Part shown: positions 40,453 to 44,475 of the stretch, piece after piece
How the letters are laid out: each line of letters starts with the position of its first letter
Position numbering within the stretch: position 1 is the stretch's first letter
NCBI RefSeq assembly: GCF_001761365.1
Contig: NZ_CP017477.1
Location: 1,386,501-1,450,500 of the forward strand
DNA: 64,000 nucleotides
Direction: 5' to 3'
From: Polaribacter vadi
GTDB taxonomy: Bacteria; Bacteroidota; Bacteroidia; Flavobacteriales; Flavobacteriaceae
Made by a program: the position numbers and the translations under genes
The notes under the pieces: generated by a model
The model's input: only the letters and a program-made list of their open reading frames with translations
Databases searched by the model: none
What the model was told of the DNA's origin: nothing

Positions 40453-40950
40453 ATGACAAAAATTTTACTTTTATCTGATACTCATAGTTATATTGATGAC
40501 CAAATTCTAAAGTTTGTAAAACAAGCAGATGAAGTTTGGCATGCAGGAGATATTGGAGACTTACATGTTACAGATACCATAAAAAAATTAAAACCTTTAC
40601 GTGCAGTTTTTGGTAATATTGATGACAAAGATGCTAGAGCAGAATTCCCTTTAGACAACAAGTTTTCTTTAGAAGATGTTTCTGTTTGGATTACGCATAT
40701 TGGAGGATATCCTAATAAATATAACAAAAGGATTAAAGAAGAAATAAAAATAAATTCTCCAAAGATTTTTATTTCTGGACATTCTCATATTTTAAAAGTA
40801 CAATATGATAAAAAGTTAAATTTATTGCATTTAAATCCTGGTGCAGCTGGCAATCATGGTTTTCATAAAATTAGAACTATGTTACGTTTTGAATTAGAAA
40901 AAGGAGAAATTAAAAATTTAGAAATTATAGAATTAGCTACACGTGGTTAA
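40453..40950 (+). CDS. metallophosphoesterase, YfcE/MJ0936-like
   Basis: 165 residues. Metal-binding motifs in order: LLSDTHSY (D, H), WHAGDIGD (D), FGNIDD (N), ITHIGGYP (H) and ISGHSHILK (H-x-H). This is the small calcineurin-like phosphodiesterase family that needs manganese or iron; the natural substrate is unknown. The 3' end overlaps the kinase gene on the other strand by 14 bases (convergent). Start fits the family length. Confidence 0.92.
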   Translation: MTKILLLSDTHSYIDDQILKFVKQADEVWHAGDIGDLHVTDTIKKLKPLRAVFGNIDDKDARAEFPLDNKFSLEDVSVWITHIGGYPNKYNKRIKEEIKINSPKIFISGHSHILKVQYDKKLNLLHLNPGAAGNHGFHKIRTMLRFELEKGEIKNLEIIELATRG

Positions 40951-42706
40951 ATGCTACTTTTTCTACAATTGGTAGTATTATTGATATTCTTGTGCCATTA
41001 TTTAAGGAAGATTGTATATTAAATTCTCCTTTCATCATTTGAATTCTGGCATCTATTTGATTAATACCTAAGCCGTCTTTAATATTAATAGAATTTTTAT
41101 CAAACCCAACTCCATCATCTGAAATAGTAATATATAACTTTTCGTTTTCTTGCTTTAATTCTATAAGTGCATTAGATGCATTACTATGTTTTAAAATATT
41201 ATTTGCAAATTCTTGAGTTATATTATATACTTTAATTTCAAAATTCTGCTCATACCTTCTTGTATTTTTTATATTAGTATCTATATTTAAAACTGAATTT
41301 GAATATTTTTCTGCAAGTTCTTTTATAGCAAACTTAAGTCCGAATTTTAATAATACAGATGATACCAATGTATGAGACAAGTCTCTAATTTTATGAGATG
41401 CTTCTAATATTATTTCTTGAGTTTTATCAATTTCAATAGGAGTACTTCCATTGAACTGTTTTCTTGTGGCTTGTAAATGAAGATTTGCAGAAGATAATAA
41501 TGCACTTACACTATCATGTAAAGTTTCTGCAATTTGTTTTCTTTCAGATTCTTTTCCATCTATGGTTGCATTTAAAATTCGGACTTGTGATTCTGATTTT
41601 AATTTTTCTATTTTTTGATTTTGAAGTAATTCTGTTTGTTTAAGTTTAAGAGCAAGATTTTTTCTTCTCAAATAAAAATATACGCTAAGAACAAGTAAAA
41701 TTGTAAAGATTACCAAACCAATAAGAACAATAGTTCTAGCTTTATCTTTTTCTTTTAGTAATTTTAATTCCTCTTGTTTTTGAAATCTCTCTTTTTGTGA
41801 TTCGAAATTGTATTTGAAATCTAATTCCTCAATCATTCTCCTAATTTCTTTATCTCTTAAAGTGTCTTTTAAATCGTATGATAACTCTTGATATCTGTAA
41901 GCTTCATAATCTTTTAGAATATACAAATTGTAAGCTAAATTAAGATAAAGTCTTTCTCTTATTCTTAATGCTTTGTCACTATTTTCAAATTTAATTAAAT
42001 TTAAAGCTTCATTATAAGTCTTTTTTGCCTTATCAAAATCATTAACCCCTAGATATATAGAAGCTAAATTTCCAAGAGCAGCAGCTTCAGAAATTTTATT
42101 ATTTAATGTCCTATGAATTGTTATTGCTTCTAAAACGTACTCTTTAGCTTTATCATATAAAGAATCTTGCATAAAAACCCCAGAAAGATTTGACAAAGCT
42201 TTGGCCCTGTAAGATATAAATTCTTTGTCTAGACTTTTTATTTCTAAAGTTTTATTATAAAAATATATTGAGGAATCCTGCTTACCTAATCTAAGATATT
42301 CATTTCCTAAATTTAGATAGGTTTTAGATAAATATAAATCTGTCGTTTGATAATATTTTGAGTCTAAATTATTATTATCTTCTTTTAAAATTTTTAAGGC
42401 TTTTTTTAGATAGCTAATTGATTTAGTATGATTATTGTTAATTTTAAAAATTTCAGAAATTAGAAAAGTTGTTTTATATTTAGTTTCTTCATTTATATTA
42501 TGTTTTAAAAGTTCTAAAGCATTAATTAAACATTTTTCATCTTGCCCATCTTTAAAAAGTTTTTCTATTTTTTCATATTTTAAACTATCGCTTTCTTGAA
42601 ACAATAAAAAAGAGACCTTTTTTAAAAAGGTCTCTTTTTTATTACTAAAAGTCTTATTAAAATTTAATAAAATAAAAATAAGTAAAAAAAAATTTCTAGT
42701 TTTCAA
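40937..42706 (-). CDS. TPR-containing sensor histidine kinase (HisKA_3 type)
   Basis: 589 residues. Order: signal peptide (1-22), a periplasmic array of TPR-like helical pairs (about 40-300), coiled coil, one membrane helix (about 325-346), HisKA_3 dimerisation domain with phosphoacceptor His397 in ETLHDSVSALL, and an ATPase domain with NNILKHSNAS (N box), ISDDGVGFD (G1) and GLGINQIDARIQMMKGEF (G2). This is the NarX/DesK-like architecture usual in Bacteroidota, which pairs with LuxR-type response regulators; the regulator at 43544-44212 is the natural partner. A perfect terminator-like hairpin lies at codons 23-34. The 3' end overlaps the gene on the other strand by 14 bases. Confidence 0.93.
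   Translation of the reverse strand: MKTRNFFLLIFILLNFNKTFSNKKETFLKKVSFLLFQESDSLKYEKIEKLFKDGQDEKCLINALELLKHNINEETKYKTTFLISEIFKINNNHTKSISYLKKALKILKEDNNNLDSKYYQTTDLYLSKTYLNLGNEYLRLGKQDSSIYFYNKTLEIKSLDKEFISYRAKALSNLSGVFMQDSLYDKAKEYVLEAITIHRTLNNKISEAAALGNLASIYLGVNDFDKAKKTYNEALNLIKFENSDKALRIRERLYLNLAYNLYILKDYEAYRYQELSYDLKDTLRDKEIRRMIEELDFKYNFESQKERFQKQEELKLLKEKDKARTIVLIGLVIFTILLVLSVYFYLRRKNLALKLKQTELLQNQKIEKLKSESQVRILNATIDGKESERKQIAETLHDSVSALLSSANLHLQATRKQFNGSTPIEIDKTQEIILEASHKIRDLSHTLVSSVLLKFGLKFAIKELAEKYSNSVLNIDTNIKNTRRYEQNFEIKVYNITQEFANNILKHSNASNALIELKQENEKLYITISDDGVGFDKNSINIKDGLGINQIDARIQMMKGEFNIQSSLNNGTRISIILPIVEKVAFNHV
42606..42640 (-). terminator. terminator-like hairpin inside the kinase reading frame
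   Basis: The arms at 42606-42622 and 42624-42640 are perfect complements (17 bp, core GAGACC/GGTCTC flanked by A6 and T6). On the minus strand it ends in T6. It lies 66-100 bases downstream of the kinase ATG and about 90 bases behind the stop of the lipoprotein gene. Confidence 0.75.
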
Positions 42707-42729
42707 AGATTTAATTTATTATTAATAGT

Positions 42730-43413
42730 TTAATCTGTTATAGCGTCGTCAATAATAATAACTGGTTTTTTAATTAAAACTTCATTACCATCACTTTTAG
42801 CAGAAGTATTTGGAATATGATTTACAAAATCAATTTTTAATACTTCCCCTTCTTCTTTTTCAAATGTTCTTTCGAAAGTTGTTTCAGAATTTTTACCTTT
42901 TTCTAAATGTATTTCGTAAGTTCTTTTCTCTTCATTAAAAACAAACGTCACATCAGAATTATTTTTTATAGTAAAATCTAAGGTATAAATACCATCATCA
43001 TTACTTGTTATATTATATGATTCTAAAAATGACTTGTCAGCTGATTTTTTACTTAACGTAATATCATCATCAAATACGGTAACATATTGTTTTTTATTTG
43101 TATTATTATCTATAAATCCAATTTTTAATTGATTGTTATTTATCAATAAAGTTTCATCAAGCTTTTTTGGTGTTTCTTTATCTGTCGAATATAATGAAAA
43201 TTCGTTTAAGCTGCTATTTGTATTTTTAGCTACAATTGCATTATCGTACAAATCATAATCAATAGAATAAGCTCCAGTAGCATCTCTTTTTACTTTATAA
43301 GACTTTAAAAGTTTAGAGTTTAAATCGTTTGATAATAATGTTTCTTCATTAGAACAAGATGTAAAAACTAATGTAATGATTGTTGCTAAGGTTAAAAATT
43401 TAATTTTTTTCAT
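42730..43413 (-). CDS. lipoprotein with an internally duplicated domain, between regulator and kinase
   Basis: 227 residues. Lipobox ends at Cys20 (LVFTSC). The rest appears to hold two related units of about 90 residues: LLKSYKVKRDATGAYSIDYDLYDN and FLESYNITSNDDGIYTLDFTIKNN start the two copies, each followed by strands with a conserved Asn and Glu, and each ending in a LKIGFIDN or LKIDFVNH strand. All-beta; no known family recognised. It follows the regulator gene and precedes the kinase gene by 23 bases, all leftward, which suggests that it senses or presents the signal for the kinase, or is the main output of the system. This is inference from position. Confidence 0.8.
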   Translation of the reverse strand: MKKIKFLTLATIITLVFTSCSNEETLLSNDLNSKLLKSYKVKRDATGAYSIDYDLYDNAIVAKNTNSSLNEFSLYSTDKETPKKLDETLLINNNQLKIGFIDNNTNKKQYVTVFDDDITLSKKSADKSFLESYNITSNDDGIYTLDFTIKNNSDVTFVFNEEKRTYEIHLEKGKNSETTFERTFEKEEGEVLKIDFVNHIPNTSAKSDGNEVLIKKPVIIIDDAITD

Positions 43414-43493
43414 GGAGTTAATTTTAAATTTGTTTTCTATTATTATTAATGAATTTAAAATAGGTTTTGTAATGCAAGCAATAAATTATATAA

Positions 43494-43545
43494 ATTGGGG
43501 GATTTTTAATAATTATTGGGGGACTTTAATCGAATTGGGGGATTT
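43494..43545 (-). promoter_or_regulatory. three ATTGGGGGAyTT direct repeats
   Basis: ATTGGGGGATTT at 43494-43505, ATTGGGGGACTT at 43515-43526 and ATTGGGGGATTT at 43534-43545, with starts 21 and 19 bases apart (two helical turns). On the coding strand of the flanking genes they read AAATCCCCCAAT. They lie between the regulator stop and the lipoprotein start, 81-132 bases upstream of the lipoprotein ATG, so they are good candidates for the binding sites of the regulator. Confidence 0.65.
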
Positions 43546-44212
43546 ATATTATTTTGTGTTTCATTGCATACATTACCAAACCTACTACATTTTTTACTTT
43601 TAATTTTCTTAATAAACTTTTTCTATATGTTTTTACTGTGCTAATTGCTAAATTAAGCGTGTCTGCAATTTCTGTTGTGTTATATTCTTTTGAAATTAAC
43701 CTTAATACTTTTAACTCTCTTTCAGTCAACTCTTCTAGTAGCATATCTTCTGGCATTTCTCCATCTACTATTAATTTATGACCTGATAAAATTGTTATTA
43801 AATTTTTATGCAAATCACTACTAAAATATTGCTCTCCTCTATGAACTGCTTTTATACCTTCTATTATATGTTCGCCAGCATTGTTCTTTGTAATATATCC
43901 CTTGCAACCAAGGCTTAACATTTCTTGAACAATTTTAACATCATCATAACTAGATAAAATAATAACTTTTTGTTTGATATTTCTTTCCTTGAAATATGTT
44001 AAAACTTCGATTCCATCTAAAACAGGCATTGTAATATCTAATATTAAAACATCTGCTTTGTTATCTTTATTATTAACCCAATCAATTACTTCTTTACCAG
44101 TTAAAGAGTATCCTATTGTTTCAATATCTTCGTCAGTATTTATAACAGCTATGATTCCTTCTATTAAAATCTTGTGATCATCAGCTACATGAACGTATAT
44201 CTTTTCTTTCAT
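43544..44212 (-). CDS. NarL/FixJ family response regulator
   Basis: 222 residues. Receiver domain (1-120) with the acidic pocket Asp11-Asp12 (VADDHKIL), phosphoacceptor Asp59 in LILDITMPVLDG, and Ser-Ser in ILSSYDD before the usual Lys region; the C-terminal LuxR-type HTH domain (about 155-222) has LTERELKVLRLISKEYNTTEIADTLNLAISTVKTYRKSLLRKL. It belongs with the HisKA_3 kinase at 40937-42706. First gene of the leftward cassette; a 42-bp palindrome and a CCCCCTAAAGGGGG copy stand directly upstream, which may be its control region. Confidence 0.93.
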   Translation of the reverse strand: MKEKIYVHVADDHKILIEGIIAVINTDEDIETIGYSLTGKEVIDWVNNKDNKADVLILDITMPVLDGIEVLTYFKERNIKQKVIILSSYDDVKIVQEMLSLGCKGYITKNNAGEHIIEGIKAVHRGEQYFSSDLHKNLITILSGHKLIVDGEMPEDMLLEELTERELKVLRLISKEYNTTEIADTLNLAISTVKTYRKSLLRKLKVKNVVGLVMYAMKHKII

Positions 44213-44254
44213 TATTACATTACAAATTTAAAGTACTTATTAACTTTACACAAT

Positions 44255-44318
44255 CCCCCTAAAGGGGGTATTTTCACCTCCCCCTAAAGGGGGAGACGTC
44301 TCCCCCTTTAGGGGGAGG
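44255..44318. repeat. CCCCCTAAAGGGGG cluster with 42-bp perfect palindrome
   Basis: CCCCCTAAAGGGGG occurs at 44255-44268. A second copy and its exact mirror copy CCCCCTTTAGGGGG, joined by AGACGTCT, form a perfect 42-bp palindrome at 44277-44318 (including CCT/AGG at the ends). The block is extremely GC-rich compared with its surroundings. Confidence 0.85.
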
Positions 44319-44419
44319 CCAAAATCATAACAAACTAATTATCAATATATTAAAAAATTTTATATTTTACCTTTTTTTTTCGTTTAAAAATCAATAAATA
44401 TAAATTCTGCCTAAAATGC

Positions 44420-44452
44420 AAAAAACCGAGAAAATTTCTCGGTTTTTTTTCG
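44420..44452 (-). terminator. terminator of the DUF4293 gene
   Basis: AAAAACCGAGAAAATTTCTCGGTTTTTTTT: perfect stem, T-run on the plus strand and A-run on the other, so it works for the leftward DUF4293 transcript. Almost the same hairpin stands behind the clpS operon. Confidence 0.8.
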
Positions 44453-44475
44453 CACTAAATATACTACTATTAGTT

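Follow-up and report, generated by a model that had tools for sequence, protein, structure and literature searches.

In the 64,000-nucleotide stretch of the Polaribacter vadi genome analyzed here (contig NZ_CP017477.1, positions 1,386,501 to 1,450,500; henceforth the window), three leftward open reading frames (ORFs) encoding a sensor histidine kinase, a lipoprotein and a NarL-type response regulator form a cassette (window 40937-44212). This cassette is probably a self-regulating two-component system with RNAs and the lipoprotein as its outputs. The computed support consists of the conservation and joint decay of the cassette, the duplicated units of the lipoprotein, a covarying RNA and matched operators at two unlinked places. 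The features concerned are listed below by window position.

40937-42706, minus strand: sensor histidine kinase with tetratricopeptide repeats (TPR), 589 aa, TTG start
42730-43413, minus strand: lipoprotein, 227 aa, with lipobox (Cys20) and two tandem copies of an all-beta unit
43544-44212, minus strand: NarL-type response regulator, 222 aa, receiver plus GerE helix-turn-helix, recognition helix AISTVKTYRK
43054-43317, minus strand: lipoprotein unit 1 (residues 33-120; hhalign of unit 1 against unit 2)
42733-43035, minus strand: lipoprotein unit 2 (residues 127-227; hhalign), with a conserved KPxII tail, resembling signal-less single-unit relatives
42603-42643, minus strand: intrinsic-terminator-like hairpin with U run, within the first codons of the kinase ORF, perfect 20-bp arms
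43456-43588, minus strand: structured RNA element, in which the final ~14 regulator codons base-pair with non-coding sequence downstream
about 43560-43586 with 43459-43485, minus strand: stem P1 of the RNA element; the C-boxes between its arms are unpaired
43494-43546, minus strand: three CCCCCAAT C-boxes, 19-21 nt apart, as read on this strand
44223-44254, minus strand: promoter-like ATTG (44251-44254) and TAAATTTG (44223-44230), 20 nt apart, upstream of the regulator
44253-44318, no strand assigned: three CCCCCTWWAGGGGG palindromes, spaced 22-25 bp, the candidate operator for the regulator

Gene content and conservation of the cassette

ORFs and Pfam domains agree with the initial annotation of this DNA on three leftward genes in the order regulator, lipoprotein, kinase. 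The span it gave (40937..44320) is right for the genes, while its end overshoots the regulator start and takes in the three CCCCCTWWAGGGGG palindromes, which it did not mention. In Pfam, the kinase consists of TPR, HisKA_3 and HATPase_c, with nothing else above the cut-off, and the regulator of Response_reg and GerE; such linkage of a HisKA_3 and HATPase_c kinase to a receiver-GerE regulator is that of HisKA_3/LuxR-NarL two-component systems. A signal peptide and a membrane helix, as read by eye from the sequence, flank the TPR array of the kinase.

A genome scan yielded 37 lipoprotein loci, 33 of them from Polaribacter or Tenacibaculum and four from metagenome-assembled genomes; most counts given below are over 37 loci, the window and 36 others. 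The order regulator-lipoprotein-kinase is found in 36 of the 37, the exception (L044) starting inside the lipoprotein at a contig end. As the cassette lies in a syntenic run (Rho, DUF4293, cassette, metallophosphoesterase, TruA, ABC transporter), its linkage within Polaribacter/Tenacibaculum is partly inherited gene order. A terminator-like hairpin with a T run (window 44420-44455), 3' of the DUF4293 gene, separates this gene from the cassette, which therefore probably forms a transcription unit of its own.

Outside these genera, 60 stretches around DUF4293 were chosen by hand, six of them for an already known cassette. No regulator-kinase pair is present in 51 (the phosphoesterase start lies within about 330 bp of DUF4293 in 33 of these, farther away in 10 and outside the stretch in 8), eight contain regulator and kinase, and one (L134) has regulator pieces only. 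The extra protein of the eight is a double unit in L118, L119 and L121, a single unit with a Sec-type signal, located before the regulator, in L092 and L111, and a single unit within the cassette, with no signal at all, in L081, L120 and L132. Two tandem TPR kinases stand behind one regulator and one single-unit protein in L081 (3461-5266) and L132 (3555-5306; both in cassette direction).

A lipoprotein profile search of 299 genomes of the family gave 29 matches at E ≤ 0.001. All six full-length matches lie beside a regulator (in L050 the kinase is lost to the contig end), three weaker ones are single-unit proteins in the same slot, and the other 20 are weak, the two that were inspected matching by signal peptide only. 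Together with the gene order in the 37 loci, this bears out the expectation that the lipoprotein keeps to the kinase/regulator pair. Moreover, eight lipoprotein-less genomes of the genus group were opened, and the three genes are absent or decayed together in all eight, indicating that they are gained or lost as a block: five lack any cassette gene and three have only fragments. In the latter, small-genome relatives (L170, L171 and L172, from G317, G320 and G359, respectively), a regulator fragment is directly followed by a kinase fragment, with no match to the lipoprotein or the RNA element. The cassette genes thus come and go together.

A duplicated lipoprotein without known family

Based on its signal peptide and lipobox, whose Cys20 is invariant in 100 aligned sequences, the middle protein is a predicted bacterial lipoprotein. 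As the initial annotation had it, no family is recognizable: no Pfam family scores above its cut-off, nor does any NCBIfam model among those listed for the cassette proteins (for the regulator, the best 25 of 92). No PDB fold was obtained at E ≤ 0.001, the C-terminal tandem domains of phospholipase C (PDB 9gy2, 9gye) being among the nearest known candidates. Membership of a known family was dropped on these grounds.

The two related all-beta units of ~90 residues noted earlier are confirmed. In a profile-profile comparison, unit 1 and unit 2 score 83.6 (probability 98.6), with 40 column-shuffled controls reaching at most 18.9, and the AlphaFold2 model of the lipoprotein contains two seven-stranded all-beta units (predicted local distance difference test, pLDDT, 83; predicted template modelling score 0.78). 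The two units are homologous. The signal-less single-unit proteins of L081, L120 and L132 score 75.7 against unit 2 (40 shuffles ≤ 17.9), and the L081 model, built from 7 sequences, likewise has seven strands (pLDDT 72). Kinship of the L092/L111 pair to the lipoprotein unit is less sure, given a score of 36.6 against unit 2 and a shuffled maximum of 21.6.

These properties could also be those of an envelope sensor, in which the lipoprotein binds the periplasmic TPR array of the kinase and sets its activity, the RNA features described below being secondary. Such a role, one of the two that the initial annotation proposed for the lipoprotein, fits the constant gene linkage, the presence, absence and decay of the genes as a block, the lipobox, and the signal peptide and membrane helix read on either side of the TPR array. 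However, the same-slot relatives in L081, L120 and L132 lack a signal peptide and would thus not be expected to touch a periplasmic TPR array, and in L179 and L180 other genes separate the lipoprotein from the regulator. We therefore consider an envelope-sensor cassette conceivable but doubtful.

A structured RNA between regulator and lipoprotein

Across the 37 loci, the gap between regulator and lipoprotein contains 132 runs of four or more C (C4+) on the coding strand and no G4+ run, while 12.6 C4+ runs (standard deviation, sd, 3.3) are expected from base shuffles and 70.2 (sd 4.7) from dinucleotide shuffles. Because dinucleotide shuffles keep many C-runs, the stronger contrasts are those with mononucleotide shuffles, the opposite strand and neighbouring gaps. 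The pattern TCCCCCAAN{8,24}TCCCCCAA is found nowhere else in the genome than at the C-boxes of the window.

Base pairing joins the final codons of the regulator gene to the distal part of the gap. With C- and G-runs kept as blocks during shuffling, this stem beats all 40 shuffles in 34 of 37 loci (mean z -4.7). When 30 loci are aligned by sequence only, a helix of 14 bp is paired in 87.5% of cells, compared to at most 46% for slid versions, and the number of doubly changed cells (23 vs 8.5) exceeds all 500 shuffles; RNAalifold on this alignment alone returns only 7 pairs, 3 of them with double changes. A sequence-only alignment of 18 loci, with 31 pairs, is 85.6% paired and has double changes in 16 pairs (shuffled 10.1) and 47 cells (20.6); paired share, double-change pairs and double-change cells were reached by none of 500 shuffles, and the number of pair types by 7. 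Percentage paired and covariation score exceed all 500 shuffles on both alignments. Moreover, G-U outnumbers A-C in the cells of the element (67 vs 16), indicating that the sense RNA is the constrained strand, and synonymous codon use is constrained toward the 3' end of the regulator gene (alignment columns 200-213 have an observed/expected identity of 1.37, compared to 0.99, sd 0.08, maximum 1.23, in the rest of the regulator alignment). The intercistronic RNA structure is supported by covariation, and we infer a function for it, set out below.

A covariance model of the element gives one match below E 0.01 in the own genome and one match each in 73 of 97 genus-group genomes, all 73 being among the 77 with the lipoprotein; four genomes have the lipoprotein but no element match, and 20 have neither. 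Among the 299 family genomes there are six matches, four of them weak (G060, G002 and G113, at cassettes, and G238). The element ends at most 250 nt from the lipoprotein match in 70 of the 73 genomes, the others being G386 (260 nt), G370 (520 nt) and G316 (4215 nt), the last two because of inserted genes. Two secreted-looking proteins (278 and 877 aa) are encoded between element and lipoprotein in L179 (1972-5441), and a 124-aa lipoprotein-like protein in L180 (1467-1841; both in cassette direction). Eight Tenacibaculum loci (L031-L035, L038-L040; e.g. L040 5803-5937) have a second tandem copy of the element, including the regulator's last codons. Gaps from the window and five loci matched no Rfam (release 15) family at gathering score. 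Elsewhere in a Tenacibaculum locus (L024 660-768), a S-adenosylmethionine riboswitch is present (Rfam RF00162, 78.6 bits).

Two DNA-level explanations of the gap were rejected. A long inverted repeat flanks a promoter-sized segment, as it would in an invertible promoter or other DNA-level inverted repeat, but the C-runs lie on one strand only, where an inverton would show both orientations, and the G-U excess points to RNA; this explanation is extremely improbable. Nor do the C-runs qualify as regulator-binding DNA boxes on a lipoprotein promoter, since the palindromes lie elsewhere and change while the C-boxes stay, and the RNA stems covary.

At the RNA level, the C-boxes could constitute a Rho-utilisation region, with Rho loading on the C-rich, G-poor gap once the regulator has been translated, the stem controlling its access and the element acting as a Rho-dependent attenuator of the lipoprotein. 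C exceeds G in the gap in 37/37 loci (C 1562, G 539), compared to 12/37 (1262/1456), 2/37 (885/1161) and 28/36 (898/743) in three control gaps, and the gap begins right at a stop codon. For E. coli gal, Rho termination linked to translation is reported to occur at intercistronic sites (PMC9239205). However, Rho would leave unexplained both the recurring CCCCTAAA/CCCCCAA sequences and the presence of these boxes in what may be a free small RNA with its own terminator, and the phosphoesterase-TruA control gap likewise has C over G in most loci. Rho-dependent attenuation is, in our view, unlikely to be what the boxes serve.

Palindromes at the regulator promoter

Most loci have two or three palindromes, at a spacing of 22-25 bp, on the upstream side of the regulator promoter. 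This promoter-like sequence has the same arrangement in relatives and fits the Bacteroidota type. The palindromes read CCCCCTWWAGGGGG in the window and TCACTGAAAACAGTGA, TCCCTGAATTCAGGGA, CTACGTATAAATACGTAG or TTAGGGTTAACCCTAA in other species, copies being alike within a genome. The operator class pairs with the recognition-helix residue just before T-V/I: the two agree in 37/37 loci. With the G-numbered genomes added, they agree in 74 of 75 rows, of which 54 are distinct, some genomes being present both as named loci and under a G number. The nCCC class goes with S (17/17), T (2/2) and H (16/16, one row fitting TCAY too), TCAY with N (19/20) and Y (1/1), TACG with R (2/2), and AGGGnnnnCCCT with K (17/17); the sole mismatch, G337, fits no class.

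From the matched operators and their tracking by the recognition helix, we infer that the regulator binds its own palindromes. The cassette thus appears to control itself through candidate DNA sites that follow the DNA-contacting residue of its regulator. With the candidate operator located at the regulator's own promoter, the lipoprotein lies downstream in the same operon. The earlier suggestion that the lipoprotein is the main target of the regulator therefore stands in a changed form, as the candidate operator is at the regulator's own promoter and a second matching one precedes a candidate small RNA.

A candidate second operator and small RNA

An exact search of the own genome for CCCCCTWWAGGGGG returned four copies, three at the regulator and one at C1:1866294. 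At the latter site (L004), three near-palindromes are followed by promoter-like GGGGATTGAC...TATTAATTTTAC, by sequence containing AGTCCCCCAATAAATTG and by an intrinsic terminator. Next comes an ABC-F gene of the same orientation; a nucleotidyltransferase gene is oriented oppositely. The candidate small RNA would measure ~90 nt and end in the terminator AACCCAAG...CTTGGGTTTTTT. The fold of the 103-nt stretch surpasses those of 198 out of 200 shuffles, mostly owing to this terminator.

The region upstream of the ABC-F orthologue was inspected in 49 of 90 ABC-F genomes (39 with the lipoprotein, 10 without), the lipoprotein-less G356 being dropped from the count as its contig starts at the ABC-F gene. 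A site was taken as matched if it had at least five 7-mers in common with the genome's own regulator promoter, a cut set by eye. Such a site is present in 25 of the 39 lipoprotein-bearing genomes, over which cognate sites share a mean of 8.5 7-mers and non-cognate ones 3.2; none of 10,000 permutations came up to the cognate mean (maximum 5.7). For instance, the two sites share TATCCCTGAGCTCAGGGATA in G311, and CCCCATAAATGGGG and CCCCATTTATGGGG in G313. Lipoprotein-less genomes, having no regulator promoter to supply 7-mers, were compared by promoter pattern, which occurs upstream of ABC-F in 22/39 lipoprotein-bearing and 0/10 lipoprotein-less genomes; the corresponding figures for a C4 run are 26/39 and 1/10 (G359, 296 nt away).

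Unpaired CCCC boxes are common to the intercistronic element and the candidate small RNA. A C4+ box lies between promoter and terminator in 24 of the 25 matched sites (exception G314), and the 29 small-RNA sites scanned contain 41 C4+ runs and a single G4+ run. Fifteen of these 29, picked by the motif ATTTA[AG]T and aligned, have a common stem CATTTAATTT/AAATTAAATG around the boxes, followed by the terminator; covariation is claimed for the intercistronic element only. Candidate small RNAs from five loci matched no Rfam (release 15) family at gathering score. Taken together, these sites suggest that the regulator may also drive one unlinked candidate small RNA through a matching operator array.

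A second operator-like palindrome or promoter pattern lies further upstream of ABC-F in G337 and G374 (at about 470 nt) and in G344 and G394, whose RNAs have two C-box hairpins. This suggests tandem small RNA genes in the four genomes.

Alternatively, the site could be a mere leader or attenuator of the ABC-F gene, whose expression the regulator would then control; it does lie immediately 5' of ABC-F, shares its orientation and has a terminator at its end. However, the terminator-like stretch and the TTGTTTCTTTG that follows it persist in four lipoprotein-less genomes lacking operator and C-box, and the RNA of G311, G318, G333 and G357 stops at a terminator of its own, located some 65-85 nt upstream of the position seen in the other genomes. 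An ABC-F leader is accordingly quite improbable.

Kinase start and downstream hairpin

A terminator-like hairpin is found inside the kinase ORF in 18/37 loci (the window and 17 others, including one from Tenacibaculum). Among the 24 non-Tenacibaculum loci, 18 have TTG as the farthest upstream start codon available to the kinase. The hairpin in the first codons and the TTG start would both yield more lipoprotein than kinase, making the kinase the scarcer protein. The hairpin at 42603-42643 is a candidate attenuator after the lipoprotein.

Proposed circuit

Phosphorylation of a NarL-type regulator by a TPR kinase is established for the family. In the circuit we favour, the cassette kinase would phosphorylate the regulator, which would bind the tandem palindromes immediately 5' of the promoter of its own gene. 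In many of the Polaribacter genomes, it would also bind the matching array 5' of the unlinked candidate small RNA gene. The operon transcript would then pass the conserved RNA structure, made of the regulator end and the gap, ahead of the lipoprotein gene. Ribosomes finishing the regulator must open P1, and the loops of the element expose C-boxes that also occur in the small RNA; the element is for this reason proposed to gate lipoprotein expression, through translation and a factor or RNA recognizing the C-boxes. The hairpin and TTG start would keep the kinase scarce relative to the lipoprotein, and the tandem all-beta lipoprotein would most likely be an envelope-side effector or feedback subunit.

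A number of observations weigh against this circuit. With respect to the operators, the classes were set after the sequences had been inspected. On a tree of DUF4293, TruA and phosphoesterase, operator class and grouped residue need to change only 4 times each; phylogenetically independent helix/operator pairs number only 2-3, two of them on supported branches (p 0.5), so that the helix-operator match alone is not significant once relatedness is considered. Activation, as opposed to repression, is assumed from the position of the operator upstream of the -33 element. As to the candidate small RNA, the permutation test of the shared 7-mers ignores relatedness; the cognate pair is in the top tenth in only 21/39 genomes, and 14/39 lipoprotein-bearing genomes, including the Tenacibaculum-type (K) ones, have no matched site at the ABC-F gene.

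The RNA element, too, has its weak points. The stem test failed or was weak in L019 (8/40), L027 (2/40) and L033 (1/40). In the 30-locus alignment, double-change pairs (5 vs 3.9; 110/500) and pair types (15 vs 16.1; 474/500) are within the shuffles, and 13 of the 18 sequences on which the 31-pair structure was scored had already served to derive it. The window element keeps P1 and three C-boxes but no recognizable stem P2. AA or [TG]AA follows only 66 of 128 C-runs in the gap, compared to 32 of 41 in the small-RNA set. Finally, 4.2 kb separate element and lipoprotein in L179, and one weak match of the RNA model (E 0.004) falls in G238, a genome without known cassette.

Comparison with known systems

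By title and start of abstract, the open-licence literature yielded nothing on this system and no two-component-to-RNA circuit for Flavobacteriaceae. If correct, the proposed circuit would be such a circuit in this family. It would add two candidate RNA families with no match in Rfam, a starting point for finding a C-box-binding factor and a defined regulatory context for an orphan lipoprotein family. Moreover, it would offer a natural regulator-operator series, with seven recognition-helix residues, four operator classes and two unlinked sites, in which to study how the specificity of a transcription factor shifts while its regulon stays intact.

FimS/FimR of Porphyromonas gingivalis acts in the context of fimbriae, which is absent at the cassette. 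The NCBIfam FimS model matches kinase residues 62-541, but with 43.1 bits against a cut-off of 600, so the kinase is not FimS. RbpB with GibS/FopS in Bacteroides thetaiotaomicron resembles the circuit as small RNA regulation in a Bacteroidota; FopS differs, however, as a multicopy RNA family from canonical promoters, and no C-box is described for it in the available part of the source (PMC11697453).

The likeness to the Gac/Rsm system of Gammaproteobacteria (GacS/GacA or BarA/UvrY with Rsm/Csr small RNAs) lies in a NarL-type regulator, a palindromic upstream site and an RNA in which a short unpaired motif recurs. The candidate small RNA is preceded by arrays that match the regulator promoter in the 25 of 39 genomes given above, the likeness being one of palindromic layout. 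The UvrY/SirA/GacA model of NCBIfam is the second-best match of the regulator, with 115.7 bits against a cut-off of 280, which falls short of equivalog level. BarA-type kinases are hybrids with receiver and HPt domains, in contrast to the TPR/HisKA_3/HATPase_c kinase of the cassette. The repeated motif is CCCC instead of GGA, the inspected small RNAs having no repeated GGA; the operator sequence varies between species; and the cassette includes a lipoprotein and a structured intercistronic RNA. The known counterparts comprise GacA, with an upstream sequence at small RNA genes and GGA motifs (PMC2375449), and UvrY-CsrB, a Gac/Rsm-type pair of regulator and small RNA (PMC7652899).

We tentatively extend the comparison to function, although this step is somewhat less likely to hold than to fail: the RNAs might display their CCCC boxes to capture a C-box-binding protein or to pair with G-rich mRNA, as a Gac/Rsm-like post-transcriptional switch in Bacteroidota, while regulator specificity and the two unlinked operators change together between species. 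By analogy, the best reading is that the cassette may work like Gac/Rsm but is built from other parts.

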